Shown here piece by piece: positions 7,646-26,800 of a stretch of DNA of 64,000 nt. The stretch spans positions 248,001 through 312,000 of the forward strand of contig JARVLF010000005.1 of the NCBI GenBank assembly GCA_030849465.1, written 5' to 3'. The position numbers were made by a program, and so were the translations under genes. Position 1 is the stretch's first letter. Each line of letters opens with the position of its first letter. The stretch comes from Moesziomyces globuligerus (taxonomy: Eukaryota > Basidiomycota > Ustilaginomycetes > Ustilaginales > Ustilaginaceae). The notes beneath the pieces were generated by a model. It was not told the origin of the DNA and ran no database searches. It was given only the letters and a program-made list of their open reading frames with translations.

Positions 7646-9575
7646 CTAGGATTGGTTGAGGGCCAACTGGTGGAAAGCTGCGAGCTTGTCACCCACTCCA
7701 GCCTCTGTCTTAGTCTTTTGCCCGGTCGTCTTTATCTGGGCCTGAGTGTCTGTCGGTGTGGGGGCAGTTGCAGCTCTAGAGCGCTGGAGTCTACCTAGGA
7801 GCGAAGCGGTAAGCTCGCCGGCGCGATGAGCGACGATGGAGAGCAGACTGTCCGAGAGACCGTGAGTGAGCTCGTTACCTCCGAGCACGTACAGCGAGGG
7901 TTCGGGGAGGTTAGAGGCGGTCTCGATGCTTTGGCTGGCGAGCGTTTGCTGGGACGAGGTGGAGCTCGCATCGCTGGCCGCTGCAGGCGAGGTCTTTCCG
8001 CTTCGTAGCCAAGAGCGCATCGACGAGCTGGGCACGAGACGGTAGTCGCGCGTGATGCCACGGAGGTTTTCGCGCCTGCGTTCTACGACCTCGTCGTCCT
8101 CGACGTCGACGAGTGCGGCGAGCTCGTGTTCCTCGTGGACCGTCTCGCGTGCAGCCCAGTCGGCATCCAATGCCGGGTAAAACGCACGGAGCGGTTCGAG
8201 GAACTGCATCCGACTCGGCGAGCGCACGAAGCCCGTACCGACAAACACGGCATCGAAACCCACCGTCTCCTTTCGTCCATTACGGAGCTTATCGCTCAGC
8301 ACCAATTCGACGCCCTCGTCGACCACCTGCACACCATCCACCTCGGTGCAACGTCGCAGTTCCATCCGTCCCGCCTCGCTCTCGGAAGCATCCTGCAGCT
8401 CGGCGGGGAGTTGGACTTGGAACTTGTCGTACATGCTGTCGTGCAGCTCGTTGAGCAGGTCCGTACGCACCACCGAGTAGTTGGTCCGCTTAAACTCCTG
8501 CAGCCACGCGCGGCGCTGCGAGACCGAGGCCTGCCAGAACTCGTCGGTCCGCTCCGGATCGAACGCCGCCGAGTTGACAAAGCCCGTATCGTCCGACGGC
8601 ACCAGCGCCGAGGCGCGGAAGATCATGGTCACCACCGCCGTCGGGAAGCGCGAGTGCAGGTTCATCAGCATCTCGGTCGACGACTGCCCCGCACCGATCA
8701 CGGCGATGCGCAGCCGATGCGCATCCTCCAACCCCGCGCCCGCCTTTTGCTGACGCAGCGCGCCGAGCTCGCGCAGCTTGGGCTCGAGCAGCTGCAGCGA
8801 GGGAAGATAGGTGCCCGAGTGCACGATCCGCGGCACCTCCTCCGCTACCTGCTGAGCATACGCTGCCTCGAACGCGGGCGGAAGCTTGGGAACGCCTCCG
8901 ACGGCGACCGAGAGGTTGCGCGTGTAGCGCGTGACGATCTCCCCGGACGGCTCGCGCGTGCGGACGCGGTAGAGACACAGCGCCTCGTCCGCCTCGGCCG
9001 GACGCACCGCCACGGACTGCGACTTTGCATCCGCGCCCGTCGCCGTGGCGAGCGTGAGCGGCTCGATGGCGACGACGTTTTGGGCGTACGAGACGGCGTC
9101 GTTCATGCGACGCGCCGCCCAGGCGAGGTACGAGGTCCACTCGCGGCGGCTGGGGACGCCCTGCTCCTTGTTGATGTAGCGCGCCAGCCGGCCGTGCGAG
9201 TGGAGGTAGTTGTAGAAGCTGTAGGTCGACGTCGGATCGCGCAGCGTGACGAGGTCCTTGAGCGGCGAGACCTGCAGCTGCGAGCCGGGCAGCAGCAGCG
9301 CCGGATGCCACGCAAAGTGGCCGCGCTGCTCGAGAAAGTGCGCCTTGAACGACGCCTCGGCCGCCTCGGCCGACTCGCGCAGCGCGATCGAGAGCGCAAG
9401 ATGCGCAGGCCCGTAGCCTATACCGAGCAGATCAAAGATCTCGTCCTTGGCCACAACGGTATGCGACGACGAAATCTGTACAGCCACCAACCAGCGTCCG
9501 AGCCAGAACCAGGTCAGCATTCGCTCCTCCGTCAAAAGGCTGCAGGGTGGCAGCATCACAACTTACTCCGTTCAT
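7646..9575 (-). CDS. sid1: L-ornithine N5-monooxygenase (siderophore biosynthesis, Sid1)
   Basis: This flavoprotein hydroxylates L-ornithine at N5, the first committed step of hydroxamate siderophore synthesis. Two exons are inferred: 9567-9575 (only MNG) and 7646-9475, split by a 91-nt intron (donor GTAAGT at 9566-9561, branch CTGAC at 9517-9513, acceptor CAG ending at 9476). Splicing gives 612 aa starting MNGISSSHTVVAKDEIFDLL. A continuous reading from 9559 would instead place an unlikely 28-residue leader made of intron sequence before that point. The protein has the FAD-binding GIGYGPAHLAL, the NADPH-binding VIGAGQSSTEM, the late GTGFVRSP motif and a C-terminal LGGNELTHGLSDSLLS typical of the SidA/PvdA family. 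It is divergent from sid2, as in Ustilago maydis, where both genes are iron-repressed through the GATA factor Urbs1. Confidence 0.95.
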
Positions 9576-9804
9576 CTTGTTGAGCGAAGAGGTGGAGGCG
9601 GCCAGAGGCTCCTGTTGGCGTAGCGGACGTGAGCACGCGGTGCAAGGCGGATGCGAAGGTTGCGGTGAGAAACAAAGGTTCGAGAGCGAGATGGACGAGT
9701 GAGCAAGGGCAGTCGAGGTGACGAGACGGGTGTCGGTGCAGTTGCAGTCTCAGCTATCGCAAGCGTGTGCAGCCGCGAGGTCGGAAGCCGAGGCCGAGGG
9801 TGCG

Positions 9805-9810
9805 TATATA
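9805..9810 (-). promoter_or_regulatory. Possible TATA box of sid1
   Basis: A TATATA run, read on the minus strand within TTGATATATACGCA, lies about 230 bp upstream of the inferred sid1 ATG. It is an isolated AT-rich patch in GC-rich surroundings. The transcription start is unknown, so this is a weak call. Confidence 0.4.
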
Positions 9811-10276
9811 TCAAGCCGGAAAGTCGACGAGCGAGGTGATGGAAGGGAGTGTGGCGCCAAGCTGGAGAAAGCCAGAATCAAGAGAGGGGTAACGGAAGCA
9901 AGGCTACTGAGGGATTTTTTTTTTGGGCGGACAGGAAGCATGATGTGGACGCTGAACCCCTTCCTTCCATTTGGCTAAGCAGAGATCCAGGAGGAGGACG
10001 AGGCGCCAGGCGACTGGAGGGGGGCGATGACACTCATGAAAGACACGGACACCCAGGTTTCGCGGATCGGCGGCTTGAACGACTGGCACGGCTCGAGGGC
10101 AGGACCCTGACGTCGCGCGAAGCACCCGCCGCTCCGCCGCCCTCGTCGCCGCTCCGAAGCGGCCTGGACACCATCGGCGCTTAGCCTCGAGGCCACGGCA
10201 GTGCGGTCGGGCCGAGCTTGCCAAGGACGTGCAAAGCAGCACGGTCAGCTAGCTAGGAGCAAAGATCGTTATGGCA

Positions 10277-10282
10277 CTATCA
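10277..10282 (-). promoter_or_regulatory. Single WGATAR site (TGATAG)
   Basis: TGATAG on the minus strand fits the general GATA-factor consensus but lacks the ATC flank of the iron-type site. It lies about 0.7 kb upstream of sid1. A six-base match alone is weak. Confidence 0.3.
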
Positions 10283-10354
10283 CGGTGTAGCGCCACGTCC
10301 AGATCTGCCGAGGGAGCCAGCTGGACTATGGCATGTCCGGCAGTGGTCAGGCGC

Positions 10355-10364
10355 TCGACCAATC
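10355..10364 (+). promoter_or_regulatory. CCAAT box in repeated 10-mer TCGACCAATC (copy 1)
   Basis: TCGACCAATC occurs here and, inverted, at 10941-10950 and 13930-13939. With its flank this copy (CGACCAATCAGA) forms an exact 12-bp inverted repeat with 10938-10949. CCAAT boxes bind the Hap2/3/5 complex, which works with HapX in fungal iron regulation; involvement here is inferred. Confidence 0.5.
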
Positions 10365-10940
10365 AGAGCGCGGCTATTTCAAATGCGCACGGCGGGAGCT
10401 TGACGGACGACGAGCGACGGAGCGGATGTAACGGCGAAGGGGCATCGCTCTCCCGAGAGGGGGAGAGGGGCCACGATCGACTCGACGCCAGAGGGGCGGA
10501 GTGCGAATACCCAGGTTGGCCCACCGAAGCCACGGACGGGAAGAGCGAGACAGCAGGTGTGTTGCTACGGCCCGCGACGCAACGTGACAGACAGCGCCAC
10601 GTCCAAGCGACGAGCCATGACGTTCGGAAAGGCGCTGCAGGAGCGCGGGCTGACAAACCAACCGCCGTCTTAGCATCGACGGATGCATGTGGAGGAGCAT
10701 CTTGACCGACGCGTCGCCGGTGCTCTCGACCATTGTGTGAGCGCTGCATCGGGCGGCCGCCTGCACCGACGACAGCGCCCGAACGACGGCGACGATCGAG
10801 AGACGAGACGAGCCGCAGTCATGAACGAGCACAACGAGCGAGCCTGGCGGGCTGTTGAGTAGCATGCTGGTCGGGCCGAAACTGGCTTAGCGTGACGGCG
10901 GCTCTGCTAGGGCAGAGCTGCTTGGAAATAGCTCGATTCT

Positions 10941-10950
10941 GATTGGTCGA
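10941..10950 (-). promoter_or_regulatory. CCAAT box in repeated 10-mer TCGACCAATC (copy 2)
   Basis: Inverted copy of the 10-mer at 10355-10364, read on the minus strand, with the same AGA flank extending the match to 12 bp. Confidence 0.5.
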
Positions 10951-11491
10951 CGCGCGCTGCGGTCCAGCTTCTGCGCAGCAGCGTGCCGACGAAGCCGTGA
11001 TGATCACACACCTCCGCTGCAGGCGTGCCCACCGAGACGATGACCAGCTGACAGCTTGCGGGTCCAGATCTGGGTGTCTGCATTCCCGATGCTCGTCGTG
11101 CTTGCAGGCCGCTCGGAGCGCAGCGCACGTTCTAGCAAAAAGCGCGCTAGGCTCGGCGCGCCCCAGGCCCAGCTGTACGAGACCATGAGCTAAGATCCCA
11201 TCTGTTGGCGATGGGCATCACAGGTGGGGGTCGAAGCCCGGGATGAAGCTAGATCCGGGGAAGATGAAGCCCGAAATGTGCCCGTGAAGGACGATCCGCT
11301 GCATCTGCACCCAGCCTTGGCTTCACGCCCGGTCCTCGGGTGGAGGCTTGCCAGTGGACCCTGGCATGTCGGGCTTGGATGCTGGCGAGTGCTGACGCCA
11401 TTGACCGGAGACCGACTGCCCGTACGAAACGCATGAAAAGCGGAGACGGATACTTACCACATCTGAAGCAGCCGCGGGAGGGCTCATGGCT

Positions 11492-11496
11492 ATTGG
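11492..11496 (-). promoter_or_regulatory. CCAAT pentamer
   Basis: ATTGG on the plus strand. Only the core pentamer matches; it is listed because it sits among better-supported copies. Confidence 0.25.
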
Positions 11497-11840
11497 CACA
11501 GGTCGGTCGCTTGGCGAGGGGTGGGGCGACGATCGGGCGCGATGAATTCTCCGGACAGCAGAGGAATGCTCGACGCAGAGCCGTAGGTTGGAGACGGCGA
11601 TACCAGAGTCGGGGAGGTCGTTTGGTCTGTCACGACATGACGCCGAAGCGGCCGGAGAATTTTGGCAAGCAAGCGAGGTGCGGGGGGCAGTTTGGACGTC
11701 AGTCATGGCCGTTCGCTTGCACCACCTTTAGCTGGCCGTGTCATGGCGCCTGGACAGTCGTCGCGATTACGCCATCGTCCACACCACATGCCTGCGGCCT
11801 CGCGTCGAGCCGGAATCATCGGCGATTCGCACTCGCTCCG

Positions 11841-11846
11841 AGATAG
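11841..11846 (+). promoter_or_regulatory. Single WGATAR site (AGATAG)
   Basis: AGATAG fits the general GATA consensus but not the extended ATCWGATAA iron site. It lies about 2.3 kb upstream of sid1 and 3 kb upstream of sid2. Weak on its own. Confidence 0.3.
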
Positions 11847-12463
11847 AACCCGTTTTTTCTTGACATCTACCGCCGCCGACCGAAGCGGCATTCCTGAACC
11901 CGCACTTCGATCGAGCTGCAGGAGTCGCCTTGGGTGCTCGCCTATGGCCGAGAGCATCCTCGATTCCATGCAGCCGCAGCTGTCAACGAAGGTGTCGAAA
12001 TGAAAAGCCGACGTCGAGTTGCATCGATCGAGCTTGCGGCGGCAGCATCGGGGATTCGCTCTCGATCGGGGATGAAATCGGTCTCATGGACCCCGACCGT
12101 CCATACAGGCAGACAAGACAGCCGAAGTGAAGTCGCAGCCATGGTACGTACCTTTGCCGGTGGACGACTGGGAGAAGTGTCGAGTCTGACGGTGATGTAG
12201 GTTGAGGAAAGTGGTGGTGTCAACGAGAGAGGCTGGGACGAGCTTGTTTTGTAGTTCGAGAAGAAAGCGGCTCATCGGGGGGAGTAAAAAGGCGAGCAAA
12301 GGAATGGACCTGTTGGGGCATAACTTAACTTGCAGGTCATCCAACCTGGCTCGGCTGCGGTTGAGCCGAGGCAGATGGGAGCTAGCGATCAGAAGCTTGA
12401 CTCTCAGCCGCATCGTCAGGGAGCGCGGGCGCAAAGTGCGCAGCCGGCTGAGCGAGATGGCTA

Positions 12464-12472
12464 ATCTGATAA
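12464..12472 (+). promoter_or_regulatory. Iron-type GATA site ATCTGATAA (site A)
   Basis: Exact match to ATCWGATAA, the extended consensus of fungal iron-responsive GATA repressors (Urbs1/SreA/Sre1 family). It is 2.3 kb upstream of the sid2 ATG and 2.9 kb upstream of the sid1 ATG. Confidence 0.8.
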
Positions 12473-12550
12473 AATTTTTCGGCTTCGCATCAGGAGCCAC
12501 TCGGCCAGAGAATCACAGAACGACTTTCTGTGCATTCTTTCTCATCCCTC

Positions 12551-12560
12551 GAGCCAATCG
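12551..12560 (+). promoter_or_regulatory. CCAAT box in repeated 10-mer GAGCCAATCG (copy 1)
   Basis: GAGCCAATCG is repeated exactly, in the same orientation, at 13671-13680. It lies 79 bp downstream of GATA site A. Confidence 0.45.
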
Positions 12561-13024
12561 GGTCGGACCCAGCCGCACAAGGATGGCGGTGGCGGAGCGA
12601 GGTGCAGAGAACAAGGTATTCCCGTCACGACCGAAGGGAGGGATGGATCCAGAAGGACGGAGCCGGGTCCCGCACGCACATTGCTTCTCGGTGCATAAAC
12701 CAAACTCTTGGTTCTGTATTGTAGTGTGTCGATGGCGCCGAATCACGTTGTCAGGTTGGTCGTCTGTAGTGGCAGCGGCGGTGTGTGGTTGGGCGGCTCG
12801 CAGTGTGCGGTAGAGTACGAACAGGCTCGGAGGGGATGCGCATTCTTGGCAAGGTTTGAAGGCGCGGTTCCGAGTTTGCACTAGTGCAAGGTGTTGCAGA
12901 CGATGCAGCTCTAGATGAGCCAAGACTTTTCTTTGCGGGCGCACCACCGTTCTGCGGGAGCCGCTGTAGAGGGAGGGCATGGCGTACGAATCGGATAAGA
13001 TCGCGCCAGCACATGCGATGAGCC

Positions 13025-13033
13025 ATCTGATAA
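13025..13033 (+). promoter_or_regulatory. Iron-type GATA site ATCTGATAA (site B)
   Basis: Exact ATCTGATAA; with two flanking bases it shares CCATCTGATAA with site C. A nearby GGATAA at 12993-12998 lacks the consensus base before GATA. Confidence 0.8.
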
Positions 13034-13394
13034 AAAAACTTGCTGCATTTCACGCGCCGCCCATCTTGTGTCGGCTCGATAGGTCGCAAGGTGATCGACG
13101 AGCAGCCAAAGCGCACGAGCCGAGCGAACAACAGACCAACGGTTTTCGGAGCTCGGCGTGGGCTCGCGAGCACGCGGTCGACTCGGCAAGCATCCAAAGG
13201 ATGGATGCATGTGCGCATGCATGCACTCTGACTCAACTCGGCGCATGGTATGACGGAAGTGACCAAAAACACTGGCGCTGCCCTTCCGAGTTCAGCCAGC
13301 TCCCCACGCGAGTTGTTGCCAAGAAGTTGCAAACGGAGGAAGCACGCTCCGCCGCTCCGTCATCTGGGCTGCAGACAAAAATTTTCATTTCACC

Positions 13395-13403
13395 ATCTGA
13401 TAA
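13395..13403 (+). promoter_or_regulatory. Iron-type GATA site ATCTGATAA (site C)
   Basis: Exact ATCTGATAA in the same orientation as sites A, B and D. It is 1.4 kb upstream of the sid2 start codon. Confidence 0.8.
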
Positions 13404-13573
13404 GATCACCTCCTTTGCGCACGGGCCGAACCGCTCAACCGTGCCACCACGCTCATCCACAATTTGGCCGCGCCGATTCTTCCCGAAGCGCCAGCGGGTG
13501 AGAGGCCTCTATGCGCGTTGCAGTCTTGGCGCTGTCCTGCTGCGGCAACGTCGATGCGAGGGTGGAAGCGATG

Positions 13574-13590
13574 ATTGGATTATCTGATAA
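13574..13590. promoter_or_regulatory. Composite CCAAT / inverted GATAA element (site D)
   Basis: Site D (ATCTGATAA at 13582-13590) is part of TTATCTGATAA (13580-13590), two inverted GATAA cores with one base between them. An ATTGG (CCAAT on the minus strand) sits at 13574-13578, one base away. This is the only place here where the two motif types adjoin. Iron-control elements that combine CCAAT, HapX and GATA sites are known in Aspergillus; that this one works likewise is inferred. Confidence 0.75.
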
Positions 13591-13670
13591 CCCCGCTGCC
13601 CTCCCCTCTCCGGCCCGCTCGAGCGCCTGCTTGGTCGCAATGCGAGACTCGGAGCCGGCCTTGACCTCCC

Positions 13671-13680
13671 GAGCCAATCG
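13671..13680 (+). promoter_or_regulatory. CCAAT box in repeated 10-mer GAGCCAATCG (copy 2)
   Basis: Exact direct copy of 12551-12560, 80 bp downstream of the composite GATA element. Copy 1 lies about the same distance (79 bp) downstream of GATA site A. Confidence 0.45.
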
Positions 13681-13929
13681 AAGCTCGAGCTGAACCAGAT
13701 CCGATTCTTGGCTGGCGTCGAAGCCCACCGACGCAGTGCAAGCATGGGGTCCATGACTCGATCCGCTCTACTTGAAGCCGCCAAGGCCGACAAGAGCTGC
13801 TTCTGTGAGCAGCCCTCGCGCAGACAGCTGGCTGGCTCCGTCTCCGGACCGAGCTCGAGACTCAAAAAGCTGGCCCGTAGCATGATGCTCGATGCCGAGG
13901 GCAGGAAGCAAGCGGTCGGGGCGAGGTAG

Positions 13930-13939
13930 GATTGGTCGA
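13930..13939 (-). promoter_or_regulatory. CCAAT box in repeated 10-mer TCGACCAATC (copy 3)
   Basis: Minus-strand copy of the same 10-mer found at 10355-10364 and 10941-10950. It is the CCAAT box nearest to sid2, about 0.9 kb upstream of its start codon. Confidence 0.45.
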
Positions 13940-14660
13940 TTCACCGGGGATCGGGCCGAAGTTCGATCCACCTGTGACGCAAGGTCGACCGGAGCGAGTC
14001 TCCAGACGGCGGTCGGCTTGAGCCGGCATTCATTTTGGAGCCAGTCTAGCTAGCGCAGAAACGGCTTGCAAAAGCAAACAAAGGCGACCCTCCCGAATTT
14101 CCTGGATGTACAGCACATGCAGAGAGATGAATCCTGGGTGTGGTTCCGTCACCTCCACCTCTCCGCTGGCTTGCAGATCGACGCCAGCCAAACGCCCCGA
14201 AGCTCTGGCCCTCAAAACCAAAAAAAAAGAAAGGGTCCAGCCAAAGGCCAGCCTCGCGCACCGCGTCAGGCGTTGGCCGTTGACGGTGGGTGCTGCGATT
14301 TTAGAAGATCCTCACCGGCGAGCGCTGGACAAGTCGAGATGGCATGAGCAGACGAGGGATGGCGAAAGACGGATGCTGCCGACCAAAGACCAAACGGTCC
14401 CAGAAGCCAAATCCGCACCGAGACGGTAGCGCCCGCTCAGTCGTTTGCGAGAGAAGCTCGCCCTTGCTTCTTCCTTTGCGGATCACCCGAACGAGCTTGC
14501 CGCTCGCTTGCTGCCTTATAGACGCTGCTCCCATCGGTACATCCGCTTCAGCCACTGCCTTTGCATCCATATCGGCATCCACGCATCCACCATCCCGCAA
14601 GCACGCGCACCAGAGCGTCACTTTCTTCCTGACCTCACCGCAGCGCAACCAAGACAGTCG

Positions 14661-14752
14661 GTAAGTAGACACCACCTTCCGCGTCCACAATCGTCGAGCA
14701 CGATAGAGCTCATGCTAACCTCATTGCTCGTGCCTTGACTCCTCCGAACCAG
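14661..14752 (+). other. Probable intron in the sid2 5' UTR
   Basis: A 92-nt interval with donor GTAAGT (14661-14666), branch TGCTAACC (CTAAC at 14715-14719) and acceptor CAG ending at 14752. It matches the other introns of the window in length and signals. It lies 58 nt before the sid2 ATG and contains no coding sequence. A TTATAG at 14516-14521 may be the TATA element upstream of it. Confidence 0.6.
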
Positions 14753-14810
14753 TGCGGATCCTCAGCAAAGCTATCGAAACCAGCAGCAAGACGCTTCCTC
14801 CCCATTCACC

Positions 14811-17800
14811 ATGTCGCACGCTCCCTTCCCGGACGTCACCGGTCTGCGCACCTCGGGACCCGACTTCTCTCGCGTCGGCCCGCACTGCACGCTCTCGCGC
14901 GTGCAACATTCGCTTCCATTGCCTCCCCAAACAGCGCTCCAATTCGCAAACCACGACCTCAGCCTTGCCCTCCTTTCCGTTTGGTCCGCCGTCCTCTTCC
15001 ACTACGGCTCCCACGAGGCATCCAACATCGAAGTCCTCCATACCTCCCGCCACGGCGACGAGTGCATTCTTCCACTCGACTTCGAGAAACAACGCGAGCT
15101 CACCTACTTCACCCCTGCTCAGCTCGCAAGCATCGTCGATGCAGCAAGGCAAAACTGCTCTCCTGCCATTCAACTCGACCACGGTTACGCCGCCTTCTAC
15201 GAGCCAGACGCCTCCAACCAGCCTCCAAGCTACTTTGAAGCACTCACACTCAAGACAAGGCCCGAAGTCTCGCTAGCTCTCTCCTACCATCTTCCGGCTG
15301 CCGATCAGCTGCTCCTCGAGCTCAAGGCGGCTCCCGCCGTGCACTCGGACCAGTCCGCCCTCCTCCAGTTGCGCCAGGTCGCAGCGCTCCTCCAGTCCTA
15401 CCTCCAAGATGCAGAGCAGCACGCCTTGTCCGTCGAACGCTTCGACTGGAGCCTCCGCGCTGCCGACAACCCAAACTACGTCCATCTACCCGACCCCAAC
15501 TACCTCCACGACCGACATGCAGACAGGCTCGAGACCGAATTCGAGTACTTTGCCCACACCACTCCAGACGCGCTGGCTCTCGACTTCCGCTTCGATCTCA
15601 ACGACCACCAATCAACCAAGTGGACCTATGCACAGATGAACGAGCGCGCAGACAAGCTCAAGCAACTCCTCTGGAGCCATGGCATCGGTTCGGCAAGCGC
15701 CGACCCGCAGCAAGATCACATCGTGGCGCTTTACCTCGAAAAGAGCCCCGAGACTTACCTCTCCTTCATCGGCGTCCTCAAGGCCGGCGCAGCCTGGTGT
15801 CCCATCGACACCGACTGGCCCGCTTCCAGAAGGCAGGCACTCCTCGCAAAGTCAAACGCCAAGGTCGTCCTCACCCACGACGACAACATCTCCAAGCAGC
15901 TCCAGCACGATCTCCAGAGCCAAGAGGTCACCAACAAGGGTGGCATGAAGGCCATCCGCCTCGATCAGCTCGACGACGAGCTGCACAATGTCCAACAGCA
16001 ACCAGCCTCCTCCGAGTCTCGATCCATACGTCAGCTCGCCTACATGATCTGGACTTCAGGCACCACCGGTCTGCCCAAGGGCGTCGGCATCCAGCACGAG
16101 GCCATCATCCAAGCCATGCGCGCCTTGCGCCTCTACATCCCCTACGGAAAGGACAAGATCGGCACAGACCAGATCAGATACCTCCAGTATTCCGCCTACA
16201 ACTTTGATCTCTCCATCATGGACTGCTTCTACACCTGGGGCTTCGGTGGAACCATCTGCTCCTGTCCGCGTGGCGTCCTCCTCCAAGATCTCGTCGAGGT
16301 CGGCAACAGCATCCAACCCACCCACACGCTTCTTACGCCCGCCGTCATGGCCATGACCGAGCGTCATCGCGTCCCAAGCCTCAAGGTCGTCATCTCTGGC
16401 GGCGAGAAGCTCAGCCAGGTCGTTGCCGACGAGTGGAGCAACGACTGCTGCCTCCTCAACCTCTACGGCCCTGCAGAGGCCACCCTCATCGCCATGAACC
16501 GTCGCGTGCCCTTCCGAGACCGCGTCAAGGCTCCCAACATCGGCGTCGCTCTTCCCACCGTCTCGTGCCACGCTCTCGACAGGCACGATCGCGTCGTCAT
16601 CAAGGGCGCCGTCGGCGAACTCGTGCTTGGCGGTCCACAGCTCGCGCGCGGCTACGTCGGCGATCCCGTCAAGACCGCCGACAAATTCTTCCCGCATCCG
16701 CAGCTCGGCCGCGTCTACCGCACCGGCGACCTCGTCCGCCAGCTCGACAACCAGGAGTTCGAGTACCTCGGACGCATCGACGACCAGGTCAAGATCAACG
16801 GCATCCGCATCGAGCTCCTCGAGATCAACGCCGCCATCAAAAACAGCCATGACCGCATCAAAGATTCCGAAACCATGGCCTTCCCCAAGCGAGACAACGA
16901 GAGCGAGCAGCAGATCATCAACTTTTCCGCCCTTCCTGGCGGAACTCCTGGCGAGCTGCTGCGCACCGACCAAGAGGCCGTCGGAGTCGCACGCCAGCTC
17001 CAGATCAATGCAAAGCAGAACCTGCCCTCGTACATGGTGCCCAACCTCTTTGTCATCCTCTCCCACTTCCCGCGCACCTCGAGCGCCAAGATCGACCGCG
17101 TGGCCCTCAAGAACGTCCTCGCCACCTTCGACCAGCTCGACTGGGAGAACAAGATCGCCAACGACGGCGACCTCGATCACGACGATGCACCGGCATCCGA
17201 GGCCGAAGCGTGCCTCCGCAAGTGGCTCGCCAAGCTCTGCAACGTCGACGCCGCCAAGATTGGGCGCAAGACGCCTTTTACCAGCGTCGGCCTCGACTCG
17301 ATCCGTGCCATGTCCTTCTCCCAGCGCGTCTCGCAGGAAGGCTTCTCGGTCTCCGTTCTCGATGTCGCTCGCTTCCCCACCCTCAAGGCCCTGGGAGAGC
17401 ACCTGGCGAGCTCGGAATCTTCCACCAGCGAGCGCACTCTGCGAGCGAACGAGTTCCTTGCGCGATGGGACGGTGCTTTCCGACAGCCCGTTGTCGAGTG
17501 GTTGCGTCAGAAGGGCAAGACCGAGCACACCGAGGCAGACATCCAATCGGTCCTTCCTTGTACCCCGTTGCAGGAAGGTATGCTGGCCGAGTCCCAACGT
17601 GATGCGTTGAGCTACCGCATCCAACGACAGTATCAGCTTCCGTCGGACTGCGACTTGGAGCGTCTCCGTCGCGCTCTCACTCGCACCGTCGAGCACTTCG
17701 ACAGCTTGCGGACGTCGTTCGCCGACGTAGGCTCCCTCGATATCGACCCGAGCAGCCACGCATGGCCCTTCCAGCCGCACTTCTTGCAGGTCGTCTGGAA

Positions 17801-20800
17801 GCAGTGCACGCCCCGGATCGAGCACTTGGAGGCTAATGACAGCGACGACATCCAAGAGGCTATCCTTGCGAGGGCAAAGTCGCTGCGCCTGGATCCCTTC
17901 GAACCCGCGCCGCCAGTTGCCTTCTTGCTCGTCACGCAAGGATCACTCTCCTCCCTGGTCTTCGTGGCTCATCACAGCACTTATGATGCGCGCTCGCTGG
18001 GCATCTTTGAGGACTACGTCGAAGCGCTCTACAAGGAGAGTACGCCGCCTCCCTCACAGCAGTTCTCGGTAGCACTCTCGCACATTCTCCCAATCGACGA
18101 AGACGAGGCGCGCCGACATTCCGATGTCTGGGCCAAGGCCTTGGCCGCTTATCCCAAGGGCGAAGTGGTCCAGTTTCCGACCCTGTCCCTTGTCAATCCC
18201 ATCGAGGGTGACAAAGGCGAAGCCAATCTGCACGAATCGCACTACAGGCAGGCCAGCCCGCAGTGGTCGGACGTCGAGGCTGTCTGTCGACGTCTCGGCG
18301 TGTCCGCCCGTCCTCTGATCCAGACGGCTTGGGCCGTGGTTCTCTCGGCCTACATCGAGTCGCAGCACCTCGTGCTTGGGGACTCGGTCTCCGGCCGAAC
18401 CTCGTCCGCCGATCTCGACCAGGTGTACGGTCCGGTGCTGTCCACGGTGCCTGTCCCGTTTGTTCTGCGCCCCGAGCAGACGCTCGCCAAGCTGGTCAAG
18501 GAGGTCCACGCCTTCCACGCCTCGGTGATGGAGGCTCAGCACACCGATCTCGGCGCCATCCGCAAGATGCTCCAGGTCCCGCCGCGAGAGCCGCTCTTCC
18601 ACTCGGTCTTCGTCCTGGAACCAGCTCCCTCGCACGACGATGCGGCAACCGACGCCGACTTCCGCCTGATCAAGCTCGCCGATCTCGGTGTGGCGACCGA
18701 GCACGTGCTGGGTGTCGAGGTGCTTCCCGGCTCGGACGGCTCAATCAAGCTCGGCCTGAGCTGGCAGAAGAGCCTCATCAGCCAGGCGTTCGGCAAGGTC
18801 CTTCTGGACCAGTTCGACCGCAGCCTGTCCGCGCTTTGCAAGTCCAGCGACGTCAGCGTCGAGTCCGTCCTGCGTGATGACTCGAGCGCCAAGCAAAGCC
18901 CACACCTCTACTCAGTGACAGGAGCTGGTGCTTCACAGCAGCAGCACGCGGCCTTTACGAGCGTGGCAGACTCGCTCAATCGAGCAGCAATCTCCAGCAA
19001 TGCACGCGCCGTCGAGATCTACCACGAGCTTCCCGACTCGGCGTCGCTTCGTCGCGCCGCATCGACCATCTCCTACACGGAGCTGGAAAGGGCCAGTCAG
19101 GGGGTGGCAAGCTTGCTGAGACATTTGCCACGCAACTCGGTCGTCGGAGTCTGTCTCGAGCGCAGCCTCGAGAGCTACATCGTCCCACTGGCGATTCTCA
19201 AGGCTGGCCACGCCTACTTGCCGCTTGATGCGACTCTGCCGACGGAGAGGAAGAAGGAGCTGCTGGAAGACAGTGGTGCGGCTCTCGTGATCACTGCGGG
19301 CGACGAGCTAGTGCCGGATGCGTCTGCTGGCGTGCAGCGCATGGATGTCCAGTCGCCGAGCTTCCAAGACGCAGTTCGCGGATCGAAGGCTGCTGACGAA
19401 GCGCATTCGGTCCAGGTCTCGCCCAACGACGTCGCTTTCATCATTTACACCTCTGGCTCGACCGGTAAGCCCAAGGGATGTCTGCTGACGCAGGCCAACC
19501 TGGCCGCGACGATCGACGGATTCCATACCTCGTACGAGGCAGCAGCACCGGGCTCCTTTGAGCCTGGCGTCCGATTCCTGGCGCGTTCTGCCGAGGCGTT
19601 CGACGTGCACCTGCTCGAGATCTTCCTCTCGCTGCGAGTGGGCGCGACGATCGTCACGGGGCCGCGAGCTCTGGTGCACGACGACATTGCCAAAACGCTG
19701 ACCACGCTCGAGATCACGCACGCGTGCGTCGTGCCCTCGCTCTTCTTCACTAAGGGCGTGCGCGTGCGGCCAGAAGATGTCACCTCGCTGCGAGTGCTCA
19801 TCATCGGAGGCGAGGCGCTCACGCAGGACCTCTGCCAGCTGTGGGGAAGCGAGGGAGCCGAGAGACCGGTGTTGCTGAATGCCTACGGCCCCAGTGAGGC
19901 GTGCATCGGCAACTCGGTCGCGCGCATCGGCAAACGCTCTCGTCCAAGCAACATCGGCAAGCCCTTCCCGGGCACCCGGTATCTCGTCCTCAAAGAGGTG
20001 GCGGGACGCCTCGTCCCGACGCTCCGCGGCGAGCCTGGTGAGCTCTGTATCGGTGGCGACCAGGTGGCAAGGGGCTACCTGAACCGCCCTGACGCTGCCT
20101 CTTTTGTTGAGTACGATGGACAGCGCGTATATCGGACGGGCGATATGGTGCGCCTGCATCCGAGCGACGAGGCCGAGTACCTCGGTCGCATGGACGGGTC
20201 CCAGGTCAAGGTCCGTGGCGCTCGCCTCGAGCTCGGCGAGGTAGACAGCGCACTTTCAACGTGTCTGAACAAGGAGCTGGGCCAGGGCGGCTCGGCCGTC
20301 ACGATCCACGCTGATCATCCCAAGATCGACGGACCCGCGCGTCTGGTGTCGTTCTTCGCACACGAGACGGCGAGGTTCAAGCAAGACGACGTCAGAGACA
20401 AGTCGTCGCTGCTGCTCCAGGCGCGCGAGGCTGCCCAGCGTGCAGCCGAGCTCAGGCGACGCGTGCGCGCAAGGCTGCCGCAGTACATGGTTCCGAGCCT
20501 TGTGCTCCCGCTCGCGTTCCTTCCGATCGCGTCGCTGTCGGGCAAAGCAGACCGCCGCTTCCTTAAGGAGCTCTACCACTCCATCGACCCCAGTTTCACC
20601 TCGGCCCCGAGCGACCAGCAGCAGAGGGAGCTCAACAGCACCGAGCAGGCCGTGGCGGAGATCGTGCAGGCCTCGGTCCGGCTCGCCGCCGACGTCAAGC
20701 TCACCCCCGAGCTCGATCTCATCATGGCAGGGCTGGACAGCCTTAGCGTCGTGACGCTGTCGAGCCGACTGCGCAGCAAGGGCTTCAACGTCTCGGTGGC

Positions 20801-23800
20801 TGCCATTATGAATGAGCCCACGCTCGAAGCCATCGCTCGCCACGCCTCCAAGAGTGAGGCACCAGCGACGCGTCAGAGTCAAGACAAGTGGCACAGCCAG
20901 GTTGCAGACCTGACTGCCAAGGTGAAGGCGCTGCCGCAGTACAAGCGGACCGACATCGAGAGGGCGCTGCCCTGCGTTCCCATGCAGGTGGCCTTGGTAT
21001 CACAGGCCCAGTCGGACGAGCGGGACACTCCGCGTTACATCACCACCATCACCATCGATGTGGCGAGTAGGGACTACTCGGCTGAGCAGATCCGAGACGC
21101 CTGGCTGTCGACGCTCGGCCGACACGAGATCTACCGCACCGTCTTCGCCGAAGTCGAGCAAAGCTTGACTCAGGTTGTGCTTTGCCCCGGTTCCGTGGAG
21201 TCTAGCTGGACTTTCGAAGAGCGCGCCATTCCTACTAATTCGGAGCTGGCGCAGTTCCACGCCAGGACGGCGCGAGACATCGTCGGTAGCATCGATGCGC
21301 GTCCTGCGCTCCGCCTCAAGCTGTGGAAGGCCCCGAACGCGGCCCCTTCTATCTCGCTTACCTGTTCTCATGCCATCTACGACGGAGACTCGATCCGGAT
21401 GCTGCTACAGGAGGCGTCGAACCGTCTGGCTGGAAAGACAGACGACGCACCGGCAACGCCCTTCGCCTCTGCGACCCGGTTCATCGTCGGCGATGACGAG
21501 GACGCCGCGAAGAAGTTCTGGACGGAGACGCTGGCCGGCTTCTCGCTGACGCAGGTGCCCAATCTGACTGGCGTGCGGCCCGAGACGCAGGTCAGCCGCG
21601 GCGAGGAGCTCACGATCGCTTCGGTGGTGCCCTTCTCACGCCTCGAATCAGCTGCCCGGGCGATCAAGGTGACGGTGCAGTCGCTGCTGGTCGCCGCCTA
21701 CTCGAGCCTCCTCGGTCTCTATGTCGGCGACGATGATGTGACTCTTGGCCTGGTGCTGTCGGGCCGAAGCATCCCTGTGGACGGCATCGAGGCGATCCAC
21801 GGTCCCTGCGTCACAACGGTCCCGCTCCGACTGACCAACGCCCGGTCCACGAAGCTCGAGGAGCTGTGCACACGCGCCCACCAGACGATCAACGCGGTCC
21901 TTCCGTATCAGCACGTGTCGCTCGCGCAACTCATGCGATGGCTCGACGTATCGCGCTCGCCCTTCGAGGCGCTCTTTTCGTATCTGGGACAGTCAGAGGC
22001 AGCGGCGAAGCCGCAGCTGTTCGTAGAGTCGAGCACCCAGATGGAGCGGGACTACCCACTGGCCATCGAAGTCAGCGCGACGGGCGAGGCGGTCAGCCTT
22101 CACCTCGCCTTCGACGCCAGGTCGATCCCGGCAGAACAGGCCAGGATCATGCTCGCGCAGTACGATCAGCTGCTACACTTGCTGGTCGGCTCCGAGCCCC
22201 AGGCGGAGCATCTCTCGGTCCTCAACAAGGACTGCTACGTGCCGAAGGACACGAGCGAGACCATCGTCTCGCGATTCGCCGAGCATGCACGTAGCACCCC
22301 GGACGCCCCGGCTGTCGTTTTCGCTGCGGACATGCGCACAGCTCCTCAAGTTACTTCGTATGCCGAGCTGGATGCGACGAGTTCGGCGATCGCACGCGGC
22401 CTCGTCGACAAGCCAGGCAAGTTCATCGGCGTCCATCTGCACAAGGAGGGCCCGGAGCTGTATGCTGCGATCCTCGCGGTCTGGAAGGCCGGCAAGGCGT
22501 ATCTGCCGCTCGACCCGACACTGCCAAGCGAGCGACTCGCGTACATGATCGAGTCCGTAGGCGACTGTCCCGTCATCGCCAGTCGCACCACGGCCCAGGG
22601 CTTGGCAGGCTTCAGCTGCGAGGTTCTCGACCTCGCCGACCTGATCGCAGTGCGTTCGGAGCAGCCGCCGCTGCCGGTACCGAGCCTCGAGGATCCGTGC
22701 TACTTGCTCTTCACCTCGGGATCGACGGGCAAGCCCAAGGCGGTGCAGATCAGTCAGCGTGCGATGGCAGGCGTTCTGCACTCGTGGGAACGCATCCTGC
22801 CGCACACGAAGCAGTCGCGCTTCTTGCAGCTCGCCTCGATCGGCTTCGACGTGTCGCTGATCGAGATCTGCATGCCGCTCTCGCTCGGCTTTTCGATCGG
22901 CAGCGCGCCCAAGCAGGAGCTGCTCGACGACCTCACGCAGGCGATCCGCCACCTCGGCATCACGATCGCCGATCTGCCAGCGGCACTCGCAGGCACGGTG
23001 CATCCCGACGACGTCCAGCTCGAGTGGCTCATGAGCGGCGGCGATGTCATCGACTCGCGCGTCGTCGACGAGTGGAGCCAAGCCGGCCGCCTGCTGATCA
23101 ACGCCTGGGGCCCCACCGAGGCGACGATCGGAAACACGCTCGGGCCGGTCCGACCGGGCTCGACCCGCAACGCCGTCGGTCATGTCTATCCCGCCTCGTC
23201 CATGTATGTGCTCCAGGAGGATTCGACACGCATCGTTCCCTCGGGCGCCGTGGGTGAACTCGTGGTCGGCGGACCCCAGGTGGCCGACTGCTACTACGGC
23301 AGAGAGGAGCTGACGGCGGAAAAGTTCATCCGGCTCGAGGACGGCAGCCGCGTCTACCGCACCGGCGATCTCGGCCGCTTCCTGCACGACGGCACGGTCG
23401 AGTGCCTCGGTCGCATCGGCTCCGACCGCCAGGTCAAGGTCAACGGCCAGCGCATGGAGCTCGACGAAGTGTGCGCTGTCCTCGCGAGCCAAAGCGGCGT
23501 GCACGATGCAGACGTGCAGTACCTCAAGCACCCTTCGCTGGGCACCAAGCAGCTCGTTGCATTCGTCGCTCCCTCGGCCGGCTCGGGCAGTGGCGGCATG
23601 CGTGTCCGGGAGGACGAGGCTGCAGTCGAGCTGTGTGTGCGGCTGGAGCACGAGGCGTCCAAGCGGCTGGCGGCGTACATGGTGCCGACGCACTGGATCG
23701 TCACCAGCACCGCGCTGCCGCTGACGCACAACAACAAGACGGACCACCGCGCGCTCGCGGCGTTCTACGCTACGATCGATGCGGCGCTCCTGCGCGCGCT

Positions 23801-26800
23801 CGGCGCACGACGCGAGGGTGCGTCGAGCAGCACCGCCTGGACCGAGACGGAGCTCAAGCTGCGCACGCCGATCGCTGAGTACTGCAAAGTGGCCGAGCAA
23901 GAGGTGGCGAGGACCACGTCGTTCCACCGCCTCGGCATCGACTCGATCTCGGCGATCCGGCTCGTCAAGCAGCTGCGTACGCTCGGCTACGCCGTCACGG
24001 TCGCCGACGTGCTCAGCACGCCCAACATCGCTGCGCTCGCCGAAAAGCAGGCGCAAGCCTCGGCGGCGTCGGTTAACGGCGAGCGTGGGCAGGCGCAGCT
24101 CGAGGCTTGGACGCAGCGCATGCTGGCGACGGCGGCAGCAGAGGGGTGGGCGCTCGTCGAGGGCGATACGGTCGAGTCGGTCCTGCCGTGCACGCCGCTG
24201 CAGACGGGTATGATCGCTCAGTCGCTCGCCTCGGGAGGCAGCCTGTACTTCCACCACCATGCGTTCCGGCTACGCGGCGCTACGCTCGAACAGGCGACCG
24301 CAGCCTGGAGCCGGCTGGTGGAGCGTCTGGACATCCTGCGCACCTCGTTCCACGCCGTTGAGGGCGAGCACGCGTGGGCGCAGGCGGTGCACACGCACGT
24401 CGCGCCGCGCATCGTACGCCACGCGGGCGTGCTACCGACGCGCGAGCTGCATCAGCTCGAGGGCCAGCTGTCGTTCGAGGACGACGAGGCCTTCCGACGC
24501 CCCGCGCACGTGCTGCACGTCTGGCCCGACTCGGTGCGCTCCGGCGCGCTCGACGTGATGCTGAGCCTGCACCACGCGCTGTACGACGGCACCTCGCTGC
24601 CGCAGCTGCTCGACGACTTTGAGCGCCTGCTCACCGGCGAGCAGCGCCTTGCGCAGCGTCTGCCCTTCCGCAAGCTCGTCCCCGCGCTCCTCTCGCGAGA
24701 AGACGACGTGCGACACTGGACAGAGACGCTCACGGGGCTGCAGCCGAGCTTACTCGCGTCCGGCACCAAGGCTGGCCGTGCGGTCACGGTCGAAAAGCAG
24801 CTCGGCTTGAGCGCGGCCGAGCTCGAGACGCACAGCCGCACGTTGGGCGTGTCGCCACAGGTGCTGTGTAACCTCGCGTTTGCCAAGCTGCTGGCGCTCG
24901 AGAGCGGCACGCGCGACGTATGCTTCGGCCAGCTCTTTGGTCTGCTCGACCTCGTCCCCGATGCGGATACCGCCGTCGGGCCCGCGTTCAACACGGTCGC
25001 TACGCGCGTCCGCTTCGCGGCGCTTGAGAGACCCGCGAGCGAGGTCGCGGCCGAGATGCAGAGGGCCAACGATGCCGGGCGTGCGCATCGCCGCGCGGCG
25101 CTGCGCGACGTCCAGGCGCAGGTGCAGCAGCGCCAGCTCTTCGATGCGCTCTTCGACTACCAGCGCAGCTACGACGCCGACACCTCGAGCAGGCTCGAGC
25201 GCGTCGAGCTCCAGGACGCCGAGGGCGAGGCGGCGCACTACACGCTCAACGTCGCGTTTGTGCAAGGTCCGAGCCGGATGGCCATCGTCGCGCGCGCCGA
25301 TAGCGACCGCTTCGACCGGCCGGCGCTCGAGACGGCGGTGGACCGCCTCGAGGCGTTGCTCGAGCACGTGGCGACGCGGTCCGACCAGCCCGTCTCTGCG
25401 CTCCCGGACGCATGTGCCGGCCTCGCGTTCCCGCAGCATCTGCCGTCAGCGGGTGCCGCCAAGACGACGCCTGCCAAGGCCGACGGCAGACGCGGCGGCG
25501 AGCTCAGCGAGGCGGCGAGGCGGCTGGCGGCGATCATCGCCGAGGTCGCCGGCGTCGAGCTCGACGAGCTGGACGGCGGGACGCGGCTGGCGTCGCTGGG
25601 GCTCGATTCGGTCTCGGCGATCCGCATCGCCTCGCAGGCGCGCCGCGCCGGCCTCGCGCTCGGTATGGCCGAGATCGTGGCGGCAGAGACCATCGATGCG
25701 CTGCTCGAGCGCGCCGGCTCGCGCGCACGCAATGGCGTCAACGGCGCCACGGCCTCGTCGGTCGAGCCGGTGCCGCGCGCACTGGCCGAGCGCGTGGCGG
25801 CGCAGCTCGGCGTGCAGGTGCAGCACGTCGAGAGCGTGCTGCCCGTGCTCGCGGGGCAGCAGCTCTGGCTCGCCGCCTGGGCGCAGCATGGCACGGGTGG
25901 GTATAGCTTCGCCTACCGGCTGTCGGGTCTGACGTCGGCGCACGCACGAGCGACCTGGAAGCGCCTGCGTGCGCTGCGTGCGATCCTGCGCACCGCACTG
26001 ATCCCCGGCGACGACGCGAGCGCGGCGCAGGTCGTCCTGGCTCCCGCTGCACTCGACGAGGGCTTCAGCGAGATCGAGCCCGACGACGGCCGCGAAGACG
26101 AGGCGGTGCGAAGCGTCGTGGCAGCTCGCGCGGCCGAGGGCTGGGCGAGAATGAGCACGCCGCCGGTGCATCTGACCGTGGTGGGCGAGGTGGTGGTCAT
26201 CTCGCTGCACCACGTGCTGTACGATGCTGTCTCGCTCGAGTCGCTCGTGCGTGACTTTGAGCTGCTCTACCACGGACACGAGCTGGAGGCCGATGCGTGG
26301 GTGCAGACGGTGCAGCAGCTGGCTCGGGAGCAGGAGCAGCTCAAGGTGCAAGCGGCGCCGTTCTGGGCCAGTGCGCTGAGCGATGCGTCTGCTGGCCTGC
26401 TCGAAGCGCGCGCGGGTGCGCGAGGCGAGTCGTTCGAGCAGCTGCACGAGGCTGTGCGGCTAGGAAATCTAGAGCCACGTCTGCGCCAAGCGCGCGTGAG
26501 CTTGGCTGCCGTCGTAGTAGCGGCGTGGTCGGTCGAGCTGTCCGAACGTACCCAACGGACCCAACGTACAGGCGGGGAGGCGGCACTGTTTGGACTGTAT
26601 CAGCTCGGACGTAGCGGTAGCGGGGTGCAGAGCGTGGTGCAGGGACCGTTGCTCAATGTCCTCCCGATGCGCGTCCGCGGTACGACGCTGCTGGACAAAG
26701 CCCAGGACGCGGCTCAACAGCTCAAGCTGCGCGCTCAGTTCGAACAGACTCCGCTGCTAGATGCTCATACATATGCTGGCCTCGGTACGGCAAGGCCGGC

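Follow-up and report, generated by a model that had tools for sequence, protein, structure and literature searches.

The window, by which is meant the whole 64-kb stretch of DNA that was analysed, contains a cluster of iron-type GATA sites (consensus ATCWGATAA) standing between the divergent genes for an ornithine monooxygenase (sid1) and a ferrichrome-type non-ribosomal peptide synthetase (NRPS; sid2), more than 1 kb from the start of either. The features of the locus, in map order, are:

7646..9576, minus strand: sid1, L-ornithine N5-monooxygenase (open reading frame 7646-9559; PF13434, 284 bits)
9577..14810: sid1-sid2 divergent intergenic region, 5,234 bp, 60.5% GC, in which no gene was found
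12464..12472, plus strand: iron-type GATA site 1, ATCTGATAA
12990..12998, plus strand: near-match ATCGGATAA, which breaks the W of the consensus
13025..13033, plus strand: iron-type GATA site 2, ATCTGATAA
13395..13403, plus strand: iron-type GATA site 3, ATCTGATAA
13574..13578, minus strand: CCAAT box directly beside site 4, a possible, weakly indicated contact for the CCAAT-binding complex/HapX
13580..13590: iron-type GATA site 4, palindrome TTATCTGATAA, with ATCTGATAA on the plus strand at 13582-13590 and ATCAGATAA on the minus strand at 13580-13588
14811..27092, plus strand: sid2, ferrichrome-type NRPS of 4,093 aa with AMP-binding, Condensation and PP-binding domains

Sid1 shares 71% identity with its Mycosarcoma (Ustilago) maydis counterpart, an L-ornithine N5-oxygenase, and 76% with that of Sporisorium reilianum. 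Its gene presumably begins with a short first exon, which we read from the sequence as an ATG at 9576 with a GTAAGT splice donor behind it. No hidden gene was detected in the interval: between 9454 and 14934 there is no open reading frame that passes the codon-usage score, neither the frame at 12202-12813 nor that at 12979-13587 matches a Pfam family, and in a search for structured RNA the window gave no Rfam match at the gathering threshold.

The earlier note had placed four identical 9-mers at 12464, 13025, 13395 and 13582, and each is found at its place on the plus strand; the description of them as all on that strand holds for the ATCTGATAA spelling and fails for site 4, whose palindrome carries ATCAGATAA on the minus strand. 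These are the only four copies of ATCTGATAA in the window (shuffle mean 0.05, with 0 of 100 shuffles reaching four), and dinucleotide shuffles of the 5,234-bp interval yield a mean of 0.02 sites and a maximum of 1, none of 3,000 reaching four. A pattern scan of the interval found no ATCWGATAA beyond the four sites, the minus-strand half of the palindrome included. All six GATAA words there read ATCNGATAA, as against none of the 12 elsewhere in the window. Compared pairwise, the 40-bp flanking sequences agree at only 7-14 of 40 bases, and the cluster is therefore not a duplicated segment. The palindrome TTATCTGATAA occurs twice elsewhere in the genome, at C11:297665 and C19:622187.

ATCWGATAA is the motif reported for SreA, and the in vivo site of U. 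maydis sid1 fits it (Schrettl 2008; PMC2610380), which bears out the earlier attribution of the extended consensus to fungal iron-sensing GATA repressors. In U. maydis, Urbs1 is reported to repress both sid1 and sid2, with induction on iron restriction (PMC11380514). We regard the present cluster as very probably a distal element through which Urbs1 holds the divergent genes sid1 and sid2 under iron repression, and most likely as corresponding to the distal GATA element known from U. maydis sid1, given the four sites, the degree of Sid1 identity to the U. maydis protein, the presence in this genome of a two-finger gene of Urbs1/SreA type and the clusters of the motif at further iron genes. The two elements are alike in gene, factor type, extended motif and distal position; they differ in that the U. 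maydis element reportedly has two such sites in a 3.7-kb interval, whereas here four sites and a near-match, one of the sites palindromic, occupy 1.1 kb of a 5.2-kb interval. To go by its title, a paper by An et al. (1997, EMBO J) reports that the iron repression of U. maydis sid1 runs through distal GATA sequences, with which Urbs1 interacts. Since Urbs1 repression of the two genes and the consensus of the sid1 site are already in the literature, the element is an already known kind of iron switch, seen in another smut, and the idea of the earlier note is right and not new.

In iron-replete cells, Urbs1 would sit on the ATCTGATAA sites and keep sid1 and sid2 both off; as iron falls it would be released, and both genes would be transcribed. 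The iron signal would probably be [2Fe-2S], handled by Grx4, and the palindrome could take both zinc fingers or two molecules.

The genome gave 12 GATA-finger matches, spread over ten genes. At C16:643292-643831 two GATA fingers stand around CPGDGLCNGTGGTASCSGC, spelling C-X5-C-X8-C-X2-C, a spacing that we take to be that of the linker of the Urbs1/SreA family. A cysteine-rich region between two fingers is described for URBS1 and its relatives (PMC2848559). To judge from its sequence, this gene is the candidate for encoding an Urbs1-type factor; a second two-finger gene (C20:192447-192800) has no such linker in its frame.

It might be supposed that the cluster acts on sid2 only, or on sid1 only, and that the other gene is under elements elsewhere. 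Its position would suit this, as the cluster is indeed nearer to sid2 than to sid1, as had been claimed from the first inspection (it lies 1.22-2.34 kb from the sid2 ATG and 2.89-4.01 kb from the ATG at 9576 that is presumed for sid1). The interval holds no further ATCWGATAA that could serve the other gene, however, and the U. maydis element was, by the title of An et al., defined on sid1. Together with the repression of both genes that is reported for Urbs1 in U. maydis (PMC11380514), this makes action on one gene alone unlikely. A point against the reading as a shared, Urbs1-worked iron-repression element comes from U. maydis as well, in whose wild type, at 5 h, the difference between low and high iron left the transcripts of sid1 and sid2 for the most part unaltered (PMC10672361).

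A scan of the genome (18.5 Mb, 24 contigs) gave 59 matches to ATCWGATAA, or 56 sites after three overlapping palindrome partners had been merged. Dinucleotide shuffles of the window contain 0.19 matches per 64 kb, which amounts to about 55 per genome, and in number the motif is not over-abundant genome-wide; what is unusual is therefore the clustering of the sites and their neighbours. Gaps of 1.2 kb or less between sites were seen 19 times versus 0.2 expected, and ten clusters take up 29 of the 56 sites. Among the near-miss words, ATCSGATAA (38 matches) forms no cluster, ATCWGATAG (about 83-85) pairs up at two places, beside an ATCTGATAA and within the presumed ferrichrome-A region, and BTCWGATAA (98) forms only two groups of four, at C17:39-2092 and C20:636155-638114. 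In these last groups seven of the eight words are GTCAGATAA, perhaps part of a repeat element, and the C17 group lies at the very start of its contig.

Fourteen promoter intervals contain 32 of the 56 ATCWGATAA sites versus 3 of 219 near-miss words, a comparison that is partly circular, because the intervals were chosen from ATCWGATAA sites, and that stands as a contrast between words and not as an unbiased enrichment. An enrichment calculated from the reversed-pattern control (9 versus 59) was rejected because dinucleotide shuffles already predict about 55; the low reversed count is attributable to the CTA and TAG within the reversed word, which are probably rare in this genome. A further reason is that the near-miss ATCWGATAG also greatly exceeds its own reversed control (85 versus 19); for the other two words the counts were 38 versus 24 (ATCSGATAA) and 98 versus 75 (BTCWGATAA). 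Matches to ATCWGATAA inside open reading frames (L018, L026) were treated as chance.

The ten clusters stand at the following genes:

sid1/sid2: iron
multicopper oxidase (ferroxidase) and FTR1 permease, the only FTR1 found in the genome: iron
ferric reductase, one of four found in the genome: iron
siderophore transporter, named mirC in relatives: iron
GNAT acyltransferase and ABC transporter near a second NRPS, presumed ferrichrome-A genes: iron
hapX, a bZIP protein with a Hap4-type binding motif: iron
heme oxygenase: iron
P-glycoprotein-like ABC transporter: no recognised iron role
FSP1-like reductase: no recognised iron role
asparaginase-family gene: no recognised iron role

The result that would have spoken against the earlier note, a comparable density of ATCWGATAA before genes unconnected with iron, is thus for the most part not seen: seven clusters stand at recognised iron genes and the other three do not. 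The region of the GNAT, ABC and second NRPS genes we take to be that of ferrichrome A, from a comparison with U. maydis that draws in part on PMC11380514. An HMG-CoA synthase belongs to the ferrichrome-A pathway of U. maydis (PMC11380514); only one gene for this enzyme was found here, and it lies 45.8 kb from the closest ATCWGATAA.

Several observations attach to individual clusters and their surroundings. The FSP1-like reductase (L022:3368-4636, minus strand) has its best solved-structure matches in ferroptosis suppressor protein 1 (FSP1/AIFM2; 83 bits), and the palindrome TTATCTGATAA and a second iron-type GATA site lie ~0.26-0.45 kb upstream of it (L022:4866-5060; C11:297665-297859). About 0.4 kb upstream of the asparaginase-family gene, a pair of oppositely oriented iron-type GATA sites is separated by 39 bp (L032:2464-2511; C21:496163-496210). 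Within the presumed ferrichrome-A gene region a pair of ATCTGATAG is found (C19:618436 and 618933), and from these words it may be that a G at the last position is tolerated in some targets. On contig C19 the palindrome lies 3' of an MFS gene (620-622 kb). One ATCTGATAA and two ATCTGATAG also lie within 0.4 kb of each other at C15:2388924, 2388968 and 2389295 (L043).

Besides the U. maydis transcripts, several findings speak against the main reading: the motif is not enriched in number over the genome, the Urbs1 candidate lies 300 kb from the closest ATCWGATAA, three of the four ferric-reductase genes and the HMG-CoA synthase gene are without a nearby site, and there are the three clusters at genes of no recognised iron role.

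Given that GATA factors share an HGATAR core and that ten genes of this genome have GATA fingers, the sites could conceivably serve some other member, for example a nitrogen regulator, the link to iron being incidental. Nitrogen-type GATA promoters, however, hold HGATAR sites that are mostly without the ATC extension, and this pattern is not seen here, since the extension stands on six of six GATAA words in the interval (a count of GATAA words only, the interval having six GATAG in addition). The position of seven of the ten clusters at iron genes, and the different clustering of words that differ by one base, argue in the same direction, and we consider it highly improbable that the sites, whose HGATAR core is discussed in the SreA work (PMC2610380), belong to such a factor. 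Still more remote is an origin by accident or local duplication, for which there speaks the closeness of the genome-wide count to the dinucleotide expectation and against which stand the interval shuffles, the unrelated flanks and 5,000 random placements of the 56 sites, none of which put four within 1,118 bp.

The surroundings of the sites were also compared for companion motifs. With overlapping sites counted twice, CCAAT was found within 60 bp of 12 of the 36 iron-locus sites and 2 of the 23 others (background 0.17), which is suggestive only. For AAAATTTT the counts were 4 of 36 and 0 of 23 (background 0.024), for AAATTT 7 of 36 and 0 of 23 (0.035), and for CGAAAA 5 of 36 and 3 of 23 (0.077); an A/T companion motif is not claimed from these figures, as the choice of words followed inspection of the sites, and the double count of overlapping sites applies here too.

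Outside the clusters there are 27 single sites, a number that background by itself would account for, and any case for them must come from the genes beside them; eight of these (L043-L050) were viewed with 0.5-2 kb only. Four single sites precede three core genes of cytosolic Fe-S assembly and grx4:

tah18: site 149 bp upstream of the likeliest ATG
grx4, a thioredoxin part joined to a CGFS glutaredoxin: site about 320 bp upstream
nar1: site about 340 bp upstream
dre2: site about 725 bp upstream

The tah18 gene was recognised from homologues named NADPH-dependent diflavin oxidoreductase 1 and from a match to the NDOR1 structure 4h2d. Of the seven core Fe-S assembly genes that were located (tah18, dre2, nar1, Nbp35, Cfd1, Cia2 and Mms19), the first three have an ATCWGATAA within 1 kb upstream, as does grx4; the genome-wide matches place none near the three PF10609 genes, Cia2 or Mms19. 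Two of the three PF10609 genes are taken as Nbp35 and Cfd1, which were not told apart. Were sites placed at random, the number expected in eight 1-kb promoters would be 0.024, with a probability of 1.4e-8 for at least four, and on an assumed fivefold promoter excess 0.12 (P 8e-6), while the 2-kb intervals before tah18, dre2, nar1 and grx4 contain none of 219 near-miss words versus 4 of 56 ATCWGATAA (P 0.0016), all of which flatter an extension to Fe-S assembly, because the category was named post hoc, after the hits had been seen.

Most of the remaining single sites adjoin genes without an evident iron role. A site near the gene for the ribonucleotide reductase large subunit (L011; C2:67044) was dropped as a candidate, lying ~0.5 kb 3' of the gene between convergent genes; that of the small subunit (L014; C4:246365) lies 1.54 kb upstream and nearer to a divergent hydrolase gene, and the sites around both subunit genes are possibly a coincidence. 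An ArsH-like NADPH:FMN reductase (L010:5273-6028, plus strand), which at 281 bits falls under the bacterial cut-off of 292, has a single ATCAGATAA at L010:4926, ~0.2 kb upstream of its likely ATG, and might from its sequence be a flavin-dependent iron reductase.

There is some reason to ask whether the Urbs1 regulon extends from iron uptake to the part of cytosolic Fe-S assembly that supplies electrons and transfers clusters, with Tah18, Dre2, Nar1 and the sensor partner Grx4 held down in high iron and induced in starvation; from the placing of the sites we hold this to be a real possibility that falls a little short of probable. The FSP1-like reductase, with its palindromic and second sites, may belong to the same set. 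In Aspergillus fumigatus the reported targets of SreA are sidA, ferroxidase/permease, siderophore transporters, a ferric reductase, hapX and grxD (PMC2610380, PMC6762210), and the likeness to that regulon lies in the same ATCWGATAA and in the motif-bearing counterparts that SreA targets have here. The difference is that sites also stand before tah18, dre2 and nar1. Control of hapX and grxD by SreA has been described in Aspergillus (PMC6762210; for hapX also PMC2610380), and the SreA work judged Fe-S biosynthetic genes to be indirect (PMC2610380).

The direction of the response is where other fungi disagree. In low iron, Cryptococcus neoformans shows higher HAPX (1.93) and GRX4 (1.72), lower NAR1 (0.15) and DRE2 (0.50), and near-flat TAH18 (0.81) (PMC6282196), so that within its Cir1/HapX/Grx4 network HAPX and GRX4 rise as a repressor site would predict, whereas the values of NAR1, DRE2 and TAH18 are not those that repressor sites before them would predict. 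The nbp35 gene of A. fumigatus is reported as a HapX target that is repressed in iron starvation (PMC6250123). Given that NAR1 and DRE2 in the one species and nbp35 in the other are lower in low iron, repressor sites in the smut would amount to the opposite wiring, and the disagreement can also be read against any functional meaning of the single sites. For U. maydis, the main text of the Grx4 paper makes no mention of Dre2, Nar1, hapX or heme oxygenase, and grx4 is reported there without a significant iron response in the wild type (PMC10672361), which argues mildly against grx4 being strongly repressed in that species.

The control of hapX and grxD by SreA being already known, the sites before tah18, dre2 and nar1 are possibly the new part: direct GATA control of these three genes was not met in those parts of the fungal iron-regulation literature that were covered, and it may already be in print. 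Used as a probe of the genome, ATCWGATAA provides a short list of predicted direct Urbs1 targets, and it opens the question of whether part of the cytosolic Fe-S assembly machinery is under direct control of a fungal iron repressor of this family (SreA/Urbs1), and in which direction. If the extension is true, Fe-S delivery and the feedback of Grx4 on Urbs1 would be protected as iron runs out.
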